Of a stretch of 37,147 bases of DNA, positions 9,538 to 20,797 are shown piece after piece; position 1 is the stretch's first letter; the number at the start of each line of letters is the position of its first letter. Under the pieces are notes generated by a model. It was not told the origin of the DNA. It ran no database searches and saw nothing but the letters and a program-made list of their open reading frames with translations. Both the position numbers and the translations under genes were made by a program. Source of the stretch: Candidatus Methanoperedens sp. BLZ2 (GTDB taxonomy: Archaea; Halobacteriota; Methanosarcinia; Methanosarcinales; Methanoperedenaceae); NCBI RefSeq assembly GCF_002487355.1, contig NZ_NTMG01000073.1, forward strand, positions 1 through 37,147, in the 5' to 3' direction.

Positions 9538-11349
9538 TCAGAAATAATACCATATAGATGAATAATCATCAACATTTTCATTATCATCTTTCAACCTTTT
9601 AAGATACTCAAAGATCGAAACATCTGTATAATTATACGGTTCAACAAAGGCGTATTTAGATTCCCATGGATAGAAACGATAAACTCTTCTTCCATCTTCC
9701 AGGATCATTATTACCTCATGGTCCTGCCATGAGCGAAGATATGATTTCCCAAGCCTTGGGACATTGAAAACCGGCTCGTCTGTTCGCACCATTCCCGGCA
9801 GGAACCTTGCCTCCTCTTCTCTTTCCTGTTCTATCCTTGCAATGGGTACACGATAATCTATCGTTTCATCTTTTCCTTTAGTATTGAAAGTGTAATATGG
9901 GTCAATTCCCGACTTTTTTAATACTGTTCTTAAGAAACTCGATTCATATTTTTTGCTATTATAATATGTAAAAACTTGCTGGTTGTACATGTTGATACCG
10001 AGTTTCTTGATCTTCTTAATAGCTTCCAGGGTATCAGGGGTAAACTCGGTAGGATGTTCAAAATGTGTTACGATGCATAATTCCCTTGTCCCAAATGTAT
10101 GGTATTTGTCAAATATCCCAATGAGTTCATCTGTGATCCTTTGCGGCATTGTTACAATGATCCTTGTACCTATCCTGATCCTTTCAATATGGCCGATTCC
10201 TGAAATTTTAGACAACAACCAGTTAATAGAGACATCATCAAGCGTTAACGGATCTCCGCCAGTGATCAGTACTTCTTTTATGTTTTTGTTATTAGATATC
10301 CAATCCAGAGCATTCTTCATTGATTCCCGTGAGAAAACAGCATCTTTTATATCTGTGATCTCCCAGTTCCTCTGGCAGTATACACATATCTGCGGGCATG
10401 AATCAAAAGGTTTGAGAATAAGTATCTGCGGATACCTTCGAGTTATTCCCTTTATAGGACTTGTGGATTTTTCACCCATAAAATCAAGGTTTGTGCCATT
10501 ATCTTTGCTTAGCATATAATTCCAGCAGTAATTCTCACTTGGAAGGACCTGTGCTCTTATTGCATGGTCATATTTCCCTGAGTTTTCCCTGTCAAAAAGC
10601 GAAAGATAATGGGGAGTGATCTGAAAAGGTATGCAGTTTTTTCTTGCACATTCAAGCCCCCTTACCTCATCATCACTTAATCTTACAAGACACAGTAAAG
10701 TATCAATATCCGAAATTATATTTTTAATCTGCCAGTTGTAGTTCTGCCAATCCTTGTCAGTGGCATTGAAAAAATCCAGAATGGACTTTTTATTATTCTT
10801 TCTTTCTTCTATTAGATATTTATCCATCCCGGTCTTATATCGCAGGAAATAATTTTCCACATTTGATGAATAATCGTCAAGTATTTTCATGCGTTCAAGT
10901 GCTGCAGTATGCCCATTCAGGCTTATAAATAATGGAACTTCCTTTTCTGCATACATTCCTGACTCGCAGTTAATACCTTTGAAAAGATTAATAAATTCCA
11001 GGAAAAATCCAACATTTAAGCTATCGGATTTTGCTTTTTTCTTTGCAGCCCTGTATAATGAATTCAAAGCGGAATAATTTGTAATGTCCTCGTTTTCTGT
11101 TCTGATGACATTTTTAAAAACCCTTATGCACTCCTTTGCATTATTCCTCTCAAGAATATTTTTATCTTTAAAATGTTTATCAGAATAGATGTTGAAAAGA
11201 TGCCTTTCTAAATCGTTCAGGTGATCAAAAAGACTGTTCCGTGCTTCCTGCAGTTTATTGCTTGATTTGAGAATCTTGAAAATTATAGGGTCGTATTCCC
11301 ATAATGTTTCTATTAGTTTTGATTTATCATATTCCAGTAATTCTTTCAT
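9538..11349 (-). CDS. KamA-family (lysine 2,3-aminomutase-like) radical SAM protein, long form
   Basis: A 603-residue enzyme, longer than ordinary lysine 2,3-aminomutase (about 415-470). The [4Fe-4S] motif is CX3CX2C at C318, C322 and C325 (CPQICVYC), followed by VLITGGDPLTL and RIRIGTRIIVTMPQRI, which match KamA. Near the C-terminus VPRLGKSYLRSWQDHEVIM aligns with the PLP-binding PGGGGK segment of KamA and keeps the lysine (K535), so PLP use is likely. The first 280 residues are a mostly helical extension without a recognised fold. GAGG lies about 10 bases before the ATG. It follows the RRE radical SAM gene and the 30-codon ORF on the same strand. Free amino acid or peptide substrate is undecided. 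Confidence 0.82.
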   Translation of the reverse strand: MKELLEYDKSKLIETLWEYDPIIFKILKSSNKLQEARNSLFDHLNDLERHLFNIYSDKHFKDKNILERNNAKECIRVFKNVIRTENEDITNYSALNSLYRAAKKKAKSDSLNVGFFLEFINLFKGINCESGMYAEKEVPLFISLNGHTAALERMKILDDYSSNVENYFLRYKTGMDKYLIEERKNNKKSILDFFNATDKDWQNYNWQIKNIISDIDTLLCLVRLSDDEVRGLECARKNCIPFQITPHYLSLFDRENSGKYDHAIRAQVLPSENYCWNYMLSKDNGTNLDFMGEKSTSPIKGITRRYPQILILKPFDSCPQICVYCQRNWEITDIKDAVFSRESMKNALDWISNNKNIKEVLITGGDPLTLDDVSINWLLSKISGIGHIERIRIGTRIIVTMPQRITDELIGIFDKYHTFGTRELCIVTHFEHPTEFTPDTLEAIKKIKKLGINMYNQQVFTYYNSKKYESSFLRTVLKKSGIDPYYTFNTKGKDETIDYRVPIARIEQEREEEARFLPGMVRTDEPVFNVPRLGKSYLRSWQDHEVIMILEDGRRVYRFYPWESKYAFVEPYNYTDVSIFEYLKRLKDDNENVDDYSSIWYYF

Positions 11350-11402
11350 CTTTTATTGCCTCTTTAAGATGTGCTTTTCATACTACGAAATGCCATCCGG
11401 GT

Positions 11403-11495
11403 TTATAGTAATCCTGAACCGCTGTTTTTTATCCCGGCATTTATTTTCTTTTCTACTTTTTCACTGATATTTTTCCGTGGCCACCAGGGTATCAT
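11403..11495 (-). CDS. Candidate 30-residue peptide between two radical SAM genes
   Basis: A short ORF that begins with an ATG overlapping the stop of the upstream radical SAM gene (ATGA, 11492-11495), the same coupling used elsewhere in this genome, and ends with TAA at 11403-11405, 53 bases before the KamA-like start. The product begins MIPWWPRK, has a lysine/glutamate-rich middle and ends GSGLL. No homology is known to me. Because the upstream enzyme has a C-terminal peptide-recognition-like domain, this could be the precursor of a ribosomally made modified peptide, but a chance ORF cannot be excluded at this length. Confidence 0.4.
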   Translation of the reverse strand: MIPWWPRKNISEKVEKKINAGIKNSGSGLL

Positions 11496-13651
11496 TTCAG
11501 ATATACAATATTTTTTTCTATCAATCCATTCAAAAAGCCATTGCATTTGGATTCAGCTTCAGTAAAAGGGATTTGATATTTTTCTTTTATTAAATCAATT
11601 ATTTCAGATATTGTAGATTTCCCATTGCTCTTATCCAGAATATCCCTGGCAAGATCAGAAATTGTAAAAATCCTGTTATTATCTATATCAAATAAAATAT
11701 TCACTTTTTCTTTTTGAAGGTTTCCAGGTTTATTTCCTTTTCCTGTAAGGCCGGAATGGATTATCTGTGCCAGGTTAAAATTGAAAGTCCCGATAAAGAC
11801 CCCTTCATTCAGGACAGGTTGAGAATCAGTTTTTTTTGTAGATTTATTCACGGTCTTTTTCCTGTTCTGTATTGCCCTGATCAATCCGGATAAATCCGCT
11901 ACTTTGCTATTAGATCCCTTGTAATGGGAAACATACAGGAAAAGATGCTCCCTATCAAGATTGCTCCAGATGGGCAAATCCGGGTATTTATGAGCAAGTT
12001 TTGCATAGAATTCCTGGATTACAGCTTCGGTATCCTTTTTCGATAATCCCGCCGAGATATCACAATCATACCATAAAGACAGGTCTAAGGCATCATCTTT
12101 GTATATTTTTGAGACATTGAAATTATCAGGATTTTCATATACTTTTGAATGCTTTGTGAGCTGGAAACTCCCGAAAGACATTGAACGAATCTTGCCACTA
12201 TTATGCAAAATAAAATCCATGGTTTCTCTTGCTTCACTGTGGGTTTCAGTAGGAAAACCGAATATCAGGAAAAGGTGGGCCCAGATGCCAGATTCCTTGC
12301 AAAACCTGCAAATTTTTAATACATTCTCTTTTTTGATTCCTTTATCCATGCATTTAAGGACCCTCTCGCTGGCTGATTCCAGACCGAAATAAAGCATCTT
12401 ACAACCTGCGCGAGAGAGCTTGTTGCCAAGTTCGGGGGAAAAAGAGGATTCAAATCTTGAATCGGCAAGCCAGGAAATATCCAATTTTTCATCGATTATC
12501 CTGTCTGATAATGCGCCAATTATTTTTGTGGACAAACCTTCATCCTGGAAAGTGAAAAATTTAGTTTTGTGTTTATTATTCAATGTTTTGATATCGTTAA
12601 AAAGAAGGTCAACATCTCTTGGCCTGTATTTACCTGAATAACCAAATCCGTGGTCACAAAAAGTACATCGGTTCCAGTAACATCCTCTTGATGAAAGAAC
12701 AGGAATGACAGGTTCGGGTGATAAATATTTATCAAGCGGGAGACCATCAAAGCATGGGGTTGGCAATAAATTGATATCTTCCCCGCTGGAACTGAGACTG
12801 TTTACTATGATCTCCGGGCCTTTTTTATAAATTAAATTGGGAATATCCCTGATATCAAATCCATTGTCCAGATGTTTGATTAAATCTAAAAGGGCAGTCT
12901 CTCCTTCGTGAACTATCACGCTGTCAAACACTGAAAAGAGATCTTTTGTTTTGCTTATTTCATTTATAAGACGCGTGAAAACACTGCCACCAATATTGAT
13001 ATGTATTTTCGGATCGGCTTTTTTAACAACATTTGCAAGTGTTAATCCCGGTATTAACTGGCTTATATTTATTATTGAAATACCTATTAGTCCCGGGTTT
13101 CCTTCAAGTACTTCCGGAAGCGTGTATTTTTCAAAATACTCAATAAAAATATTTTCTTTCCTGTCATTTATAGCCTGAAGAACATCCGAACTTTTTCGGC
13201 ATGAATGCCGCATATCATATGAATGAAATGTAAGGTTTGAAGGATAATAAGCAGATGATGCAAGTTTAAGGCCAAGTTCAAGGATCTTAAAAGCATTGAA
13301 TAGTTTTTCTATATCATAGAAGTCTTCTTTGCTTTTTATGATGTTTTTAGCATCCTCAACACCATTAATAACGTAATCCCCGAAAAGTATAGAACTACTC
13401 AAAGCTGTATATTGTTTCTGGAATTCAGGAGATAATTCTTTTTTTAATTCAAGTTCATGGAATTTTGTTTGCGCTTTATTATAGTAAACCTGAAGCCCTT
13501 TTTTACTTAAAAGATGATCATAAAACGAAGCATTGATATCAATCTGGAAAACATTGCAGTTATTGGCTTTTAAGAAAGCGGTTAATGAAGGGAGGCTCAA
13601 ATAAGGCTGTGTTGGTATCCATTGAGGTGGGAAGAGTAGTTTTGTAAGCAT
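11492..13651 (-). CDS. B12-binding-type radical SAM protein with C-terminal PqqD-like domain
   Basis: A 719-residue protein. Residues 1-45 (LLFPPQWIPTQPYLSLPSLTAFLK) and about 180-270 (IGISIINISQL, INIGGSVFTRL, VIVHEGETALLDL) form the cobalamin-binding-type Rossmann domain; no DXHXXG cobalt-ligand motif was seen. The radical SAM core starts at C324 with an unusual CX4CX2C (CYWNRCTFC; C324, C329, C332), followed by ADSRFESSF and FGLESASERVL. The last 75 residues (VNILFDIDNNRIFTISDLA to the C-terminus) resemble PqqD, the peptide-recognition element of RiPP enzymes. The next ORF downstream is coupled by ATGA. Function unknown; a peptide or protein substrate is inferred from the PqqD-like tail. 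Confidence 0.8.
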   Translation of the reverse strand: MLTKLLFPPQWIPTQPYLSLPSLTAFLKANNCNVFQIDINASFYDHLLSKKGLQVYYNKAQTKFHELELKKELSPEFQKQYTALSSSILFGDYVINGVEDAKNIIKSKEDFYDIEKLFNAFKILELGLKLASSAYYPSNLTFHSYDMRHSCRKSSDVLQAINDRKENIFIEYFEKYTLPEVLEGNPGLIGISIINISQLIPGLTLANVVKKADPKIHINIGGSVFTRLINEISKTKDLFSVFDSVIVHEGETALLDLIKHLDNGFDIRDIPNLIYKKGPEIIVNSLSSSGEDINLLPTPCFDGLPLDKYLSPEPVIPVLSSRGCYWNRCTFCDHGFGYSGKYRPRDVDLLFNDIKTLNNKHKTKFFTFQDEGLSTKIIGALSDRIIDEKLDISWLADSRFESSFSPELGNKLSRAGCKMLYFGLESASERVLKCMDKGIKKENVLKICRFCKESGIWAHLFLIFGFPTETHSEARETMDFILHNSGKIRSMSFGSFQLTKHSKVYENPDNFNVSKIYKDDALDLSLWYDCDISAGLSKKDTEAVIQEFYAKLAHKYPDLPIWSNLDREHLFLYVSHYKGSNSKVADLSGLIRAIQNRKKTVNKSTKKTDSQPVLNEGVFIGTFNFNLAQIIHSGLTGKGNKPGNLQKEKVNILFDIDNNRIFTISDLARDILDKSNGKSTISEIIDLIKEKYQIPFTEAESKCNGFLNGLIEKNIVYLK

Positions 13652-13761: not shown

Positions 13762-14070
13762 ATGAATGATAATGATACTAAAAATATTGGTGATGAATTT
13801 GTTGAGGAAGATGAGAATTCAAAAACTGAAGACGAGAAAGCATTAGAAGGATTATATGATCTGGTTTTACCACCTGGAGTTCCCTATAAACTCATCATGG
13901 AAGTAATGGATACATTCAATCTGGAAGTTACTACCCGCAAATGTGCGGTAAAAACTATAGACGTAGAGGATGATAATCTTCTTACATTAAGAGGAGATCT
14001 CGATTCAGTAAATAATGCACATGATTATATATTTAAAAAAATGAGTGAAAAGTATAATTATAAGAAATAA
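13762..14070 (+). CDS. Small acidic hypothetical protein near mcr
   Basis: A 102-residue protein with a strongly acidic, probably disordered first 30 residues (runs of D, E and N), then a compact region from about 33 to 98 beginning LVLPPGVPYKLIMEVMDTF and continuing with KTIDVEDDNLLTLRGDL, which reads like an alpha/beta fold. One cysteine, no membrane segment. GTGAT lies about 5 bases upstream of the ATG. It runs divergently from the radical SAM cluster and convergently toward the mcr side. I do not recognise the family; its location makes an MCR-associated role possible but unproven. Confidence 0.65.
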   Translation: MNDNDTKNIGDEFVEEDENSKTEDEKALEGLYDLVLPPGVPYKLIMEVMDTFNLEVTTRKCAVKTIDVEDDNLLTLRGDLDSVNNAHDYIFKKMSEKYNYKK

Positions 14071-14151: not shown

Positions 14152-14409
14152 CTAAAACAGGCGCTCTCTACCAAGTGGTCTTGTGTATCCTGTTCCGCCG
14201 CAATTTGTGCATGGTATTCCCTGCATCAAATAACCTCTTCCCTTGCACCACTGGCATTTTCGGGATGAGTCTACAACTTCTACTTCTCCTTTTCCGCCGC
14301 AAACAATACATGTCTCGCCTTGATGTTTTCCAGTCCCGTCACAATACATGCATTTCACTATGCCTGGTACTTTGGGCGTTCTTTTTATTTCTCCTTTTGC
14401 TTCTGCCAT
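14152..14409 (-). CDS. DnaJ-type CXXCXGXG zinc-finger protein
   Basis: An 85-residue protein made almost entirely of four CXXCXGXG repeats (CMYCDGTG, CIVCGGKG, CQWCKGRG, CTNCGGTG), the zinc-binding pattern of the DnaJ central domain, with no J-domain. Two zinc ions are expected. Such stand-alone domains often serve as chaperones or thiol-redox helpers, so a role in folding or maturation of nearby MCR is a reasonable guess. It lies 108 bases beyond mcrA on the same strand but has its own TATA box (14444-14454) and GGTGAT ribosome site, and the mcr terminator separates the two. Confidence 0.85.
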   Translation of the reverse strand: MAEAKGEIKRTPKVPGIVKCMYCDGTGKHQGETCIVCGGKGEVEVVDSSRKCQWCKGRGYLMQGIPCTNCGGTGYTRPLGRERLF

Positions 14410-14517: not shown

Positions 14518-16206
14518 TTACTTTGCTGGGATAACGAATGCTCTCTCACCGGCGCAGCGGTCCCATTCTCTGAGTGCTGCTTTGCCGAATGCGCCCCTTG
14601 GATCTGCGAAGTCAAAGTTGATCAATTCATCTGCGAAGCAGACTTTGACCAATGGATTGACGCAGAAGGCATCCTTGCCTGCGTGAGCTGCTGCTACTAC
14701 TGAGGTGTATCCACCCTGGTGACCTACGTTCATTGCGTAGTTGGGGTAGTTTGCGCCTCTGCATTCGCCTATGCAGCCTTCATCTGAGGCAATTGAGAAC
14801 ACGTTGGTTGCACCGCACTGATCCTGCAGGTCATACCCGAAGAATCCAAGTCTGCCGTGTGCCTCTTTGTGGAGGTACATGGACAGATACCATGCGGAGA
14901 GACCGGCCTGGCTGTGGCCTGTTGCCAGAGCTGTTGCGCCGCCTGCTGCTATTGAACAGACTGTTGCGCGCTGTGAACCGCCGAAGTGGTCTTCCAGTGT
15001 GGTCGGATATTTCTCATATGCTTCAAGACTGTACAGTGTTGATTCTGTAGCAATGTCTTTTACGGTGTCGATTGTGGCTTTTGCCTTTCCGCGACCGCCG
15101 TATTTCTTTGATGCATATTCGTCTGCCCAGTACAGGAAGTCATCGACGATATCATTGGTGTATGCTGGTGTTGCATACATTGTGAATCCGACGCCGCCTG
15201 ACATGTAGCCACCGAGCCAGATCTGGTCATATAACATTGTGGCTGCGCTTGCAGTCTGCAATATTACATTGACTGGATCTTCTGGACCCTTTCTGTTGGT
15301 CTGGCAGATATCTGCCATATGACCGAAGGATAATCCTCCTGGCTCATTTGGACCTCTTGCTCTGCGTGCCGGGATCATGTCACCCATTTCGACAAGTCCT
15401 GCGTGTTTGGCTGTGAATGCAAGTTCTCCGACTGCTGCTTCACCGGCGCACATATGGTATGCGCTGATAAAGGTCATACCGACCTGCATTGCCATCCAGC
15501 GGCTTGTTCCTGGTCCATCTTCAGTTCTTGTGACGATGGTTGGGATGTGTACTGCCTGCCAGGAGGTCTTGCCTACTGCTGCCTTGATCTGTTTTGCCTG
15601 GTTTGCCGGGAATTCGTTGTCAATGTTGATAACGAACTGCTTATCTACTTCATCCTGAAGGGTTTCATCACCTGTGAATATTTTCACATAGCAGTCATCT
15701 ACTAATGCCGGGTGTGTTTCAACCATGTGTTCCTGGACGATTGCTGCGCCAGGCATTGCGTGGTTCAAAACTTCAAGGTAGTAGTTGATTGTCTCAGGTG
15801 TAACTTCCTTGCCTAATCTCTTCTCAAGAACTTCATGTGCAAGGTCAAGACCTACAACGCATGATCTTCTGATGTCGTCCCATTCCTGCTGCATTGCTGC
15901 ATTGTTGACGAAGTGAAGGTCGTCACCATCGCATACGATATCTGTTCCAGATATTGTGTATGGGGTCAACTGTCTCTGACCCATGGGGATACCTGCTAAG
16001 TGCAACTTGGGGTCATAAGCCTGCAATCCTCTCTTCTTGGTGATTGCTGCTCCGCACTTTGCCATCTCAACTTTTCTTGGATTCTGCTGGTAACCAAGTC
16101 TAAGGTATTTGGCTTTCTTATCGGTGATTTTGCCACCTTTATTCTTATTTGATCCCCATTCCTTAGTATATTTTGTCTCCATTGCTTTTTGGAATCTTAC
16201 TGCCAT
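14518..16206 (-). CDS. mcrA: Methyl-coenzyme M reductase subunit alpha
   Basis: A 562-residue MCR alpha subunit, catalysing the reversible CH3-S-CoM + HS-CoB <-> methane + heterodisulfide with nickel cofactor F430. By alignment to the well-known enzyme, the modified residues correspond to H268 (methyl-His), R282 in IPARRARGP (methyl-Arg), Q412 in GGSQRA, G457 in GFFGYD (thioglycine) and C464 in LQDQCG (methyl-Cys). All five are conserved; whether each is modified is not visible. The loop after the active-site segment reads [20 protein letters not shown], with C478 and C482 where leucines are usual. mcrG ends 10 bases upstream; a terminator follows. Confidence 0.98.
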
Positions 16207-16216
16207 TTAAGTCACC

Positions 16217-16966
16217 TCACGCCTTTGGGACGAACCCGTATTTGGTTCTTAATTCCCATACTCTCTGAACATGTTCAATAACTTCTTTATCGCTTCTGAA
16301 TGCAACATTGTCCACTCTATAGATGGTGGTTCTCTTTGCTGCTTCTGCTTCGCTCATTGGTTTTCCAAGGTTGACTTTTCGGTCAATTGGTACGCCGACC
16401 TGGTCTTTGTCACTTACAATGACTCCGCCTTCAAGTCTGCGCCTGTCCAACATATCGAACATTACGCCATCTTCCTGTAATCTGAGCGAGTGACCGTGAA
16501 CTGTACAGCCTCTCATGCCTGCAAGACCCCAGTCAGTGATCTCGGTTTCTGACTGTCTCTTGGCGTACTCTTCCATATCTCTCTCTCTCATTTCATTGAC
16601 TTGTCTGCCAGATAATGTACCTGGGTCGACTCCTCTGAAATTGATGGCTGCATGGTACGATCTCCAGTATGGTACTGCTGGACCGTTATACATTGAGTCA
16701 GCGAACTGTACATATCTCATTCTGTCGCCGGCTGCTGCGCCTGGTGTTGGTTCAACGACTTCTCTTACCGGGCATGCTGGTTCACCAATTTCTGAAAGTG
16801 GTGGATGTGTGCTCGGGTAATCGGAACCTGGTGCCCTATGACCGAGTAATGCTGTTAAGTCTTCATCAGAAATATCACGCATTTTCTCTACATCATCTGA
16901 CATAAATTTTCTTCTATTCTTAGCAACTGAGGTGCTGCCAGGATAATATTGTGGTTTATATGCCAT
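16217..16966 (-). CDS. mcrG: Methyl-coenzyme M reductase subunit gamma
   Basis: A 249-residue gamma subunit, standard length. Starts MAYKPQYYPG and holds the conserved GDRMRYVQFADSMYNGPAVPY and RGCTVHGHSLRLQEDG segments. With alpha and beta it forms the (alpha-beta-gamma)2 hexamer, helping to hold F430 and the CoM channel. An AGGAGG site lies upstream of the ATG. It lies between mcrD (55-base gap) and mcrA (10-base gap). In many Methanosarcinales mcrC would occupy the gap before mcrG; it is absent here. Confidence 0.97.
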   Translation of the reverse strand: MAYKPQYYPGSTSVAKNRRKFMSDDVEKMRDISDEDLTALLGHRAPGSDYPSTHPPLSEIGEPACPVREVVEPTPGAAAGDRMRYVQFADSMYNGPAVPYWRSYHAAINFRGVDPGTLSGRQVNEMRERDMEEYAKRQSETEITDWGLAGMRGCTVHGHSLRLQEDGVMFDMLDRRRLEGGVIVSDKDQVGVPIDRKVNLGKPMSEAEAAKRTTIYRVDNVAFRSDKEVIEHVQRVWELRTKYGFVPKA

Positions 16967-17021: not shown

Positions 17022-17543
17022 TCATTTCTCTTCCTCTGGATTAATAACACAGAGGCTATTTTCCGGTTTTGCATGCGGATCCATCAGGCCGAGTATTCGT
17101 TCGTCTTCAAGATTGATACTTTCATCAGTCTTGCTTTTGAATCCATACTTACCGTAATCAGTCAAAGTAGCTTTCTTCTTTATGAAGAAACCCTGTTTGA
17201 ATTCAAAGGAAAATGGCAGCGTTCGCTCGCACGCATTTCTTAGTTCTTCCTTTGTGCTTTCATCTTCTAGTTCGACTATTACCTCGCCTACCATCACATG
17301 CAATTCGAATGCACAATCTCCGACATGGATTATTTCCATATTCGGGTGGTTGACATCTGTTCCGGTTCCAGGTCCACATGTGACCTTCCGGGGCAGATTT
17401 TTTCCACCGATTAGCATTCTTATTACTCCATTGACATGATCGATCTCATTTAAGAGCCTTTCAGCAGTCTCTGGTTGCAATAATCTTTGAGGAAATATTT
17501 TGATCTGGATTGGTTTACCCGTGACTGAAGCAGTTTTTACCAT
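17022..17543 (-). CDS. mcrD: MCR operon protein D
   Basis: A 173-residue McrD, a soluble non-subunit protein that binds MCR and is thought to help its assembly or F430 delivery. Recognisable by IKIFPQRLLQPETAERLLNEI, GPGTGTDVNHPN and the C-terminal LTDYGKYGFKSK. It starts 14 bases after the mcrB stop codon and is cotranscribed. No unusual length or missing segment was noted. Confidence 0.93.
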   Translation of the reverse strand: MVKTASVTGKPIQIKIFPQRLLQPETAERLLNEIDHVNGVIRMLIGGKNLPRKVTCGPGTGTDVNHPNMEIIHVGDCAFELHVMVGEVIVELEDESTKEELRNACERTLPFSFEFKQGFFIKKKATLTDYGKYGFKSKTDESINLEDERILGLMDPHAKPENSLCVINPEEEK

Positions 17544-17557
17544 TCAATTCTCCGAAT

Positions 17558-18862
17558 TTATACGGCTCCTGCTACTGCCTTGATTGGCTCTCTGAATTCG
17601 TCTACCGCGCTGAAGACATCTCCTACTAATCCTGAGGTCTTCTCTGGGCTGTATACCTGAACACCTGCGTCAAGAGCAACTGCTGCTGCTACGCATGGTA
17701 CTGCGAGACCCTTTGAGTGTCTGGTAACTACGTGGTTGCCGTTGAAGACTCCTGGTCCACCGCCACCATAGATGGAGTGTGAGAAGAAGGAGAATCCGAC
17801 TGCTGCGCCCTGTACTTTACCGAAGTCACAACCTGGGAGTGAGGTCTCTTTCTCAATGAGGTCCTGGAAGTATAGCAATACTGAAGATACTGCCTGTGGG
17901 GCTCTCTGAGCGCCGCAGTTGATGAGTGTTGCTACAAGTGTGCCTGCTGCACAATATGCATTCCACTTTCCGACATCATTGGTCTTGTATGTTGTATAGC
18001 CAGATGCGAATTTCTTATCTGCGCTGATTACTTTATCTGCAATTGCTTTCTCAACGCATGCATGGACAGCTGAACCGATTGTACCGGTCTTGCCTAATGC
18101 TTTTGTTGTTCCATACACCATGTTATTGGCGTTTAAGCCCTGGTGTGAGAATGCAAGTAATCTGTGTCTTGTCTGGTTGCCGATTGCGTCACCCATTTCG
18201 AATACACCTGTATTCTCAAGGATTGAGCACAATGCTGCTGTGTTCATTGCGTTTTTCTTGCATACTGCTGCAAGGTGGTTTGCCATGACGTTTCTTAATG
18301 TATAGCCAAATCCTTCATCTTTCTGTGGGATTTCGACGATTGACTTTACGTTTCCGCCTACCATATCAAGTGTCTGTGGGTACTGTCCCCAGACTGCGGA
18401 CTTGACGGTTGGGGCATCGAACATACCGATATTGAATTGGCTTACTAATGCCTGTGTTACTGCTGATGCTGTGCAGGTCAATGATGATACATACTCTGCT
18501 GCAACATCGATTCTTACGGATGGAACCTGGACGATTAACTGTTTTCCACCGTTTAATGCTTTTACAACGGTGTCATCTCCGCTGTCAACCTGTACCATTT
18601 CGGTAACTGCTTTCTGGATAGCTGCTGCATTCTTTACGATATCTAATTTCATTTCTCTGCCGGGGATCTTTCTGCCTTTGCCACCGATTGCGGATGTTGC
18701 TAAGGTTTTCTCGATTCCTGCTAAGTCAACGGCTGCTGTTCGCTTTATACCGGTGACTATTGATTTGATAGCGGCATTTCTCATTGGGCTTATGTCGTTT
18801 ATGTCGACGCCTGATTTGAGTTTTGCTCCTCTGTCGCTATATAGGTCTATTGTGTCAGCCAC
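17558..18862 (-). CDS. mcrB: Methyl-coenzyme M reductase subunit beta
   Basis: A 434-residue beta subunit with MADTIDLYSDRG at the start and the conserved active-site region FFSHSIYGGGGPGVFNGNH near the C-terminus, whose phenylalanine and tyrosine line the substrate channel and help bind coenzyme B. The start codon is GTG, supported by a strong AGGAGGT site about 8 bases upstream. It is the first gene of mcrBDGA. About 300 bases of noncoding leader precede it. Codon use is biased to frequent codons, in keeping with a highly expressed protein. Confidence 0.98.
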   Translation of the reverse strand: MADTIDLYSDRGAKLKSGVDINDISPMRNAAIKSIVTGIKRTAAVDLAGIEKTLATSAIGGKGRKIPGREMKLDIVKNAAAIQKAVTEMVQVDSGDDTVVKALNGGKQLIVQVPSVRIDVAAEYVSSLTCTASAVTQALVSQFNIGMFDAPTVKSAVWGQYPQTLDMVGGNVKSIVEIPQKDEGFGYTLRNVMANHLAAVCKKNAMNTAALCSILENTGVFEMGDAIGNQTRHRLLAFSHQGLNANNMVYGTTKALGKTGTIGSAVHACVEKAIADKVISADKKFASGYTTYKTNDVGKWNAYCAAGTLVATLINCGAQRAPQAVSSVLLYFQDLIEKETSLPGCDFGKVQGAAVGFSFFSHSIYGGGGPGVFNGNHVVTRHSKGLAVPCVAAAVALDAGVQVYSPEKTSGLVGDVFSAVDEFREPIKAVAGAV

Positions 18863-19474: not shown

Positions 19475-19530
19475 CTACCTCTATTATATCATTTATTGTT
19501 ATTAATCATTGTGGTTATGCAGGACAATAA

Positions 19531-19539
19531 GTTTATATA
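19531..19539 (+). promoter_or_regulatory. TATA box of mmp10
   Basis: GTTTATATA lies 23-31 bases before the ATG at 19562, the spacing expected for a leaderless archaeal transcript. It falls inside the longer open frame that begins at TTG 19496, which argues against that longer start. Confidence 0.6.
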
Positions 19540-19561
19540 CCATCTGACATTTCGTGAGGAC

Positions 19562-20797
19562 ATGGAAATTCTTGCTGACATCGGAGGGCGTCCCGGTCTT
19601 GACTGCCGGGGTTTTTGTAGATATTGCTATTTTAAAGGTGTAACCGAAATCCCCGCATTTGGCTGCAAACATTGTATGCCATTCCAGAAAGGATGTAATT
19701 ACTGCACAAAAAGCGTCAAGGAAGGATATTCAAGTTTTAAATCCATGCCAATGGTCGCGCAGGAAGTCAAACAATCAGTTTTTTTCAATAAGAATGAGAA
19801 TGTAACGAAATTCAATGTTAGCGGAGGAGGGGATGTGAGCTGTTATCCTGAGCTTAAACCCCTTATCAAATTCCTCTCGGAATATAAAAAACCGATCCAT
19901 CTTGGATACACAAGCGGAAAAGGCATGAATAAGGATGATGCCTTGTTCTTCATAGACCATGGTGTAAATGAAGTCACCTTTACGGTTTTCGCAACAGACC
20001 CGGAACTGCGGCGAAAATATATGAATGATAAGACGCCTGAAGATTCACTTTCTGCACTTCGTATCCTTGCCGGAAAGTGTGATGTTTATGCAGCAACAGT
20101 ACTTATTCCGGGAGTAAATGACAAAGATGTCCTGCTGAAAACCTGCAAAGATCTTGAAGAAATGGGCGCAAAAGGGCTCATACTTATGCGGTTTGCCAAT
20201 GAAAATGAACAGGGGCTGATCCTTAATAATTCCCCTGTATTAGAAGGAGTTACTCCCCACACCATCCTTGAGTTCAAATCGATAGTTGACGACATTAACA
20301 GCAAATTCGATTTCCGGGTAACCGGCACTCCCCTGTATGATCCTGAAACAGGGTCTCCATTTGCCATACGCAATGTTCCTGAAGCGCTGTCAAAATTACC
20401 TGAAATAACAAAAGAAGCAACGATCATTACAAGTGATGTTGCAGCGCCATTATTAAGGAAGATTTTCGATAAACTCGGAGGGCTCGTAAATGTCATTCCC
20501 GTGAAAAAGGATATTGGCTGCCTTATTACCATCGATGATATAAAAGCACTGGACTTATCACAAATAAAGGAAACAGTATTTTTCCCTGGAAGGGCATTTG
20601 TTCATGATCCTGAGATCAAGAAAATACTGGCCATGGATGGGAAAGACAGGTTAGTAAGAAGAGGGCCTGATATGCTCACAGTTGATGGTGAGATGAGCAT
20701 TTCAATGACAAAAGAGGAAGTTATTTCAAAAGAAATAGAAGCATTTACCGAACTTATCCAGGCGATAAATGTTATCGGGACAAAACCAATCCTTTGA
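19562..20797 (+). CDS. mmp10: Mmp10, McrA arginine C-methyltransferase (B12-dependent radical SAM)
   Basis: A 411-residue methanogenesis marker 10 protein. It C-methylates an active-site-region arginine of McrA (R282 in this window's McrA) using SAM and cobalamin. The start [14 protein letters not shown] leads straight into the [4Fe-4S] motif CX3CX2C (C15, C19, C22), followed by a second cysteine set C35, C38, C45 and C48. [10 protein letters not shown]-like sequence, [14 protein letters not shown] and [17 protein letters not shown] fit the family. I chose ATG 19562 over TTG 19496 or ATG 19517 because the TATA box lies inside the longer versions. It diverges from DUF2098 and the mcr operon. 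Confidence 0.93.

Follow-up and report, generated by a model that had tools for sequence, protein, structure and literature searches.

We propose that a 719-residue cobalamin (B12)-dependent radical S-adenosylmethionine (SAM) protein, encoded behind the methyl-coenzyme M reductase (MCR) operon of the nitrate-reducing, methanotrophic archaeon Candidatus Methanoperedens sp. BLZ2, is the C-methyltransferase that acts on the beta-carbon of His159 of McrG to give 3(S)-methylhistidine, and we put the probability of this at about three in four. The gene lies in the 37,147-nucleotide stretch of contig NZ_NTMG01000073.1 analysed here (the window), the minus strand of which carries mcrB, mcrD, mcrG and mcrA and then a gene for an 85-residue DnaJ-type zinc-finger protein. 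Past these come a 102-residue gene on the opposite strand, the B12-radical SAM gene and a gene for a 603-residue KamA-like aminomutase (Table 1). What points us to this substrate and site is the position of the gene, its distribution among relatives and a set of co-varying sites in McrG.

The modification itself was reported in 2025: His159 of McrG is 3(S)-methylhistidine in both MCRs of the anaerobic methanotrophic archaea (ANME) of group 2d, and not in that of ANME-2c (PMC12413448). The same paper describes this residue as new in natural proteins and as the first modification found on the gamma chain of any MCR; it names no enzyme, expecting a methyltransferase with a mode of action like that of Mmp10 or of the glutamine methylase. 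In the literature that we searched, which took in few subscription journals, we found no paper assigning a gene to His159 methylation. Strain BLZ2 is the source of one of the ANME-2d enzymes (PDB 9QR1), and the McrA and McrG of the window are identical to it over 562 and 249 residues respectively, excepting McrG residue 159, which is X in 9QR1. The second crystallised ANME-2d McrG (9QQT) matches that of genome G003 at 248 of 249 residues, the exception again being residue 159, and G003 carries the B12-radical SAM gene behind mcr.

The remaining six ANME-2d modifications are shared by ANME-2c, which carries 2(S)-methylglutamine in place of 3(S)-methylhistidine (PMC12413448). In the family that we identify as ANME-2c by its McrG, which is closest to 9QM5, our searches turned up no close counterpart of the B12-radical SAM gene. 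Since the other six modifications occur there as well, His159 methylation is left as the target. The glutamine methylase (TIGR04014) behaves as this pattern of modifications predicts, scoring over its cut-off in the ANME-2c family and in none of the 34 Methanoperedenaceae genomes that make up our family set (labelled G below). Judged by these comparisons, the distribution of the B12-radical SAM gene agrees with the presence of the His159 modification.

The 719-residue protein matches Radical_SAM (PF04055, E 8.7e-18), and its cluster cysteines C324, C329 and C332, spaced CX4CX2C, are invariant in two family alignments. Its match to the B12-binding domain is weak and under the Pfam cut-off, while the C-terminal PqqD-like domain reaches 35.9 bits where the curated cut-off is 23.4. 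Across 19 family members, Radical_SAM is matched by 19, B12-binding by 19 (E down to 1e-8) and PqqD by 18; the family profile also matches the solved PqqC/D structure 5sxy at the region of the PqqD domain (E 0.005). An AlphaFold2 model, with a mean predicted local distance difference test score of 91.6, gives a B12-radical SAM fold like those of TsrM, OxsB and MgmA, which are its best Foldseek matches among solved structures. The best named NCBIfam profiles are TIGR03975 (E 5e-36), PhpK and ApyD (E 3e-27). A PqqD domain resembling a RiPP recognition element (RRE), where RiPP denotes a ribosomally synthesised and post-translationally modified peptide, implies that the substrate is a peptide or protein.

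Which protein this might be is suggested by the gene's neighbours. Among 22 Methanoperedenaceae loci compared for synteny, the B12-radical SAM gene lies directly behind the mcrA, zinc-finger and 102-residue genes in 18, a count that includes loci where the contig is cut and the gene adjoins the 102-residue gene; in G020 it stands at a contig edge. The conserved partner is the mcr operon, which makes McrG the likely substrate. Relatives of at least 60% identity in the named genome collection belong to Methanoperedens or Methanoperedenaceae (M. nitroreducens ANME-2d and Mnv1 are among them) or to archaeal metagenome-assembled genomes (MAGs), while other sampled families of the same order gave partial matches of about 25-30% or none. 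No relatives of either the 719-residue or the KamA-like protein were found in viral contigs. As the family genomes are mostly metagenome bins, absence of the gene from one of them may reflect loss in assembly.

Some absences do appear to be real losses. Beside the 102-residue gene, G006 retains residues 591-702 with stops, G022 retains 525-718 in pieces and G025 retains 696-716; such remnants beside mcr indicate that the gene was ancestral in these genomes and then decayed. No copy was found in G004, G011 or G016, where the mcr contigs of G016 and G011 end early (that of G011 inside mcrA). His159 is conserved in every Methanoperedenaceae McrG that we examined and so cannot co-vary with the gene, for which reason we looked to neighbouring sites instead. 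In a tree of McrA and McrB, G006, G016 and G025 form a clade within the genus (support 83/99). Their McrG stands apart from every other McrG of the family set, those of the gene-less G004, G011 and G022 included, at exactly three sites, and at each of them it carries an outgroup-like residue: L/M for A/C/S at 139, C for D at 145 and P for W at 146. These sites lie no more than 20 residues upstream of His159. The same comparison came up empty for McrB and McrD, and in McrA (available for two of the three clade genomes) it gave a single site, which is not outgroup-like. Outgroup-like sites turn up here and there in other clades too, with no more than one in McrG; the deep-branching G031 and G033 have a larger number in McrA and McrB.

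We consider it likely, if a little less so than the methylation of His159 taken by itself, that an RRE-bearing RiPP-type enzyme was recruited in Methanoperedenaceae to methylate the beta-carbon of the McrG histidine that contacts the nickel cofactor F430, and that the clade without the gene reverted three nearby sites. The RRE-like domain would bind the McrG chain before MCR assembly. Reductive cleavage of SAM at the [4Fe-4S] cluster would yield a 5'-deoxyadenosyl radical that abstracts a beta-hydrogen of His159; the resulting C-beta radical would receive a methyl group from methylcobalamin, and a second SAM would recharge the cobalamin with methyl. Residues 139, 145 and 146 could be part of the recognition surface, or their replacements could be compensating changes. 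C-beta methylation of an aromatic residue has a precedent in ApyD, an RRE-containing B12-radical SAM enzyme that forms beta-methyltyrosine in a peptide (PMC10635010). With ApyD modifying a peptide and a relative lying beside a RiPP precursor gene (see below), the 719-residue family plausibly derives from peptide-modifying enzymes.

Several observations count against this reading. The three-site contrast comes from one clade, and hence one or few events, and was noticed by inspection, so that we regard it as suggestive. G004, G011 and G022 have no intact gene yet retain D145-W146, which would fit a more recent loss. The gene lies away from mcr in G008, G012 and G031. The G020 copy (L084) has a stop at codon 547 and the G010 copy (L214) is split in three pieces, perhaps through assembly errors or recent decay. 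The protein also scores too low for the curated cut-offs of all the named NCBIfam families that it resembles, including TIGR03975, a family of RiPP radical SAM C-methyltransferases (124.4 bits against 281.85), and the ApyD profile NF050148 (95.2 against 750). Finally, BLZ2 and the second crystallised strain have at least three further B12-radical SAM genes in common, at 58% identity or more, and these are without a close match among the ANME-2c hits. These were surveyed by profile only, and the list is incomplete, given that the profile misses the 719-residue protein itself.

This last point opens the way to the strongest alternative, namely that one of these other enzymes methylates His159 and that the 719-residue protein modifies another residue of MCR, in McrA or McrB, or F430. 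Adjacency to mcr does not by itself name the target. We nevertheless think this unlikely, given that the other six ANME-2d modifications occur in ANME-2c, which yielded no close relative of the gene, that the co-varying sites of the gene-less clade lie upstream of His159 rather than in McrB or McrD, McrA having only its single non-outgroup-like site, and that the loci examined show no further B12-radical SAM gene next to mcr.

A second alternative takes the RRE-like domain at face value: the protein would be a RiPP maturase that holds the leader of some small precursor peptide whose gene lies at another locus. Both the PqqD domain and the best profile, TIGR03975, are what such an enzyme would show, and a relative of 38% identity and the same length, in the 'Methanosarcina sp.' MAG UBA11020, has a weak PqqD match (E 0.004); next to its gene lie not mcr but a gene for an Os1348-type precursor and one for a SPASM radical SAM protein. 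However, searching for this precursor class only, we found no Os1348-type precursors in the window genome and none over the cut-off in the family; no obvious or conserved precursor open reading frame (ORF) stands near the gene in the 22 loci, and its conserved neighbours are mcr genes. We judge a RiPP maturase improbable. A small conserved downstream ORF, present in eight loci, was considered as a precursor and rejected, as it resembles a zinc-ribbon protein. The initial annotation of this DNA had suggested modification of a peptide, and of this the peptide or protein substrate stands, now with McrG as the likely candidate, while no precursor peptide was found. The UBA11020 cluster (L185:7427-12965) as a whole comprises a SPASM radical SAM gene, the relative of the 719-residue protein, a second B12-radical SAM gene and the Os1348-type precursor of 76 residues. 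Shorter relatives of about 591 residues occur in Nitrospinota (L186-L213 and similar loci), most with a cupin gene of about 106 residues directly upstream.

The initial annotation had also read the locus as a two-enzyme cluster, a B12-type radical SAM protein with a C-terminal PqqD-like domain followed on the same strand by a long KamA-like aminomutase, which together might place a beta-amino acid in a peptide. Both ORFs and the PqqD-like domain are confirmed by profiles, with 142 bp between the genes, but the pairing does not hold: among the 34 genomes the two adjoin each other solely in the window genome and in a close relative, G021, while in G015 they are separated by 75 kb and elsewhere they lie on separate contigs. 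Another KamA gene, of AblA size, lies close to the KamA-like gene in six relatives (G002, G003, G008, G013, G015 and G024); in G002 the neighbours of the KamA-like gene are ablA and ablB genes over their cut-offs, and an MscS mechanosensitive-channel gene lies upstream of it in the loci inspected. As the pair is not conserved and the conserved pocket positions of the KamA-like protein fit a free amino acid, we reject joint insertion of a beta-amino acid, which we regard as very improbable, in favour of C-methylation by the radical SAM enzyme.

The KamA-like protein is probably a separate small-molecule aminomutase. It exceeds the cut-off of the KamA family TIGR00238 (324.4 bits against 199.2) and is below those of TIGR04368 (258.3 against 650) and TIGR03820 (199 against 525). 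With the glutamate and lysine 2,3-aminomutases it shares the KamA family and the CX3CX2C, GGDP and pyridoxal phosphate-lysine positions, but it differs from them in an N-terminal extension of about 190 residues. Lys491 and Asn529, both invariant, align with the two substrate-binding aspartates of AblA, the lysine 2,3-aminomutase. Lysine and asparagine at the two substrate carboxylate positions are what we take to be the pattern of glutamate 2,3-aminomutase, and the protein perhaps makes beta-glutamate. The ablA/ablB locus is an osmolyte locus (PMC11337218). In some Methanoperedens (L068, L071) the KamA-like gene follows genes for a PurD-like ATP-grasp protein and a GNAT acetyltransferase, and this combination may make a further osmolyte.

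The proposed His159 methyltransferase can be set beside three known systems. MgmA (TIGR04014; PDB 9ccb) is a B12-dependent radical SAM C-methyltransferase for MCR, as our protein would be, and the MgmA gene sometimes adjoins the mcr operon (PMC11796369). MgmA differs in acting on the C-alpha of an McrA glutamine and in its size, its model having 434 positions against 719 residues with an RRE-like domain. Although the top phmmer match to our protein in the PDB is 9ccb, named MgmA in the Foldseek table, orthology with MgmA was rejected, the TIGR04014 score being 65.7 bits against a cut-off of 360. Mmp10 (TIGR03278), the MCR arginine C-methyltransferase, shares radical SAM methylation of an sp3 carbon of MCR and has its gene in the same neighbourhood; it is a separate protein with a different target, and its gene also lies beside mcr in other families. 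The ApyD and TIGR03975 enzymes, among the best profile matches, include in ApyD an RRE-bearing enzyme that methylates a tyrosine C-beta (PMC10635010). They differ in acting on small precursor peptides in bacterial clusters, whereas we propose as substrate one subunit of an enzyme of core metabolism.

If our proposal is true, neither 3-methylhistidine nor any modification of the MCR gamma chain had a known enzyme before the 719-residue protein. A candidate gene makes the source of 3(S)-methylhistidine directly testable, may supply a part missing from attempts to express methanotrophic MCR in other hosts, and links the enzymes of peptide natural products to the maturation of a core methane enzyme. 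The modification would also be predictable from sequence across Methanoperedens, and some species should be without it.

Table 1. Features of the window discussed in the text, with coordinates, strand and basis of assignment.
Feature	Position	Strand	Basis
719-residue radical SAM protein, B12-dependent, PqqD/RRE-like at its C-terminus; proposed C-beta methyltransferase of McrG His159	11492..13651	-	Domains, predicted fold, synteny behind mcr
B12-binding-like domain (residues 177-257 of 719-residue protein)	12881..13123	-	PF02310, E 1.3e-4
Radical SAM cluster motif C324-YWNR-C329-TF-C332 (CX4CX2C)	12656..12682	-	Invariant cysteines
PqqD/RRE-like domain (residues 652-716 of 719-residue protein)	11504..11698	-	PF05402, E 9.6e-9; genome-level match
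102-residue conserved protein gene, between mcrA and radical SAM gene	13762..14070	+	Kept across family
85-residue DnaJ-type zinc-finger protein gene, behind mcrA	14152..14409	-	PF17302 and PF00684 matches; conserved
mcrA	14518..16206	-	Identical to PDB 9QR1 chain A
mcrG	16217..16966	-	As PDB 9QR1 chain C except residue 159 (X in PDB)
McrG His159 codon (CAC), residue reported as 3(S)-methylhistidine	16490..16492	-	PMC12413448
McrG Asp145-Trp146 codons	16529..16534	-	Co-varying sites: D-W alongside the radical SAM gene, C-P in gene-less clade G006/G016/G025 and outgroups
McrG residue 139 codon, third co-varying site	16550..16552	-	
mcrD	17022..17543	-	Place and conservation within mcr operon
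mcrB	17558..18862	-	Place and conservation within mcr operon
603-residue long KamA-like aminomutase; judged outside mcr system	9538..11349	-	Profile match, gene neighbourhood, pocket residues
Mmp10 gene, same mcr neighbourhood	19496-20797	+	TIGR03278, 620 bits

Two further features of the mcr loci were observed. The zinc-finger and 102-residue genes are kept behind mcrA in Methanoperedenaceae, and we saw neither in the mcr loci examined from other families; the 102-residue protein has no Pfam or NCBIfam match over cut-off, and the two products are possible MCR assembly factors. A gene of about 200 codons stands between mcrD and mcrG in families f2, f3 (the ANME-2c family) and f5 (L151-L155, L157) and is absent from the Methanoperedenaceae operon; it is probably mcrC.

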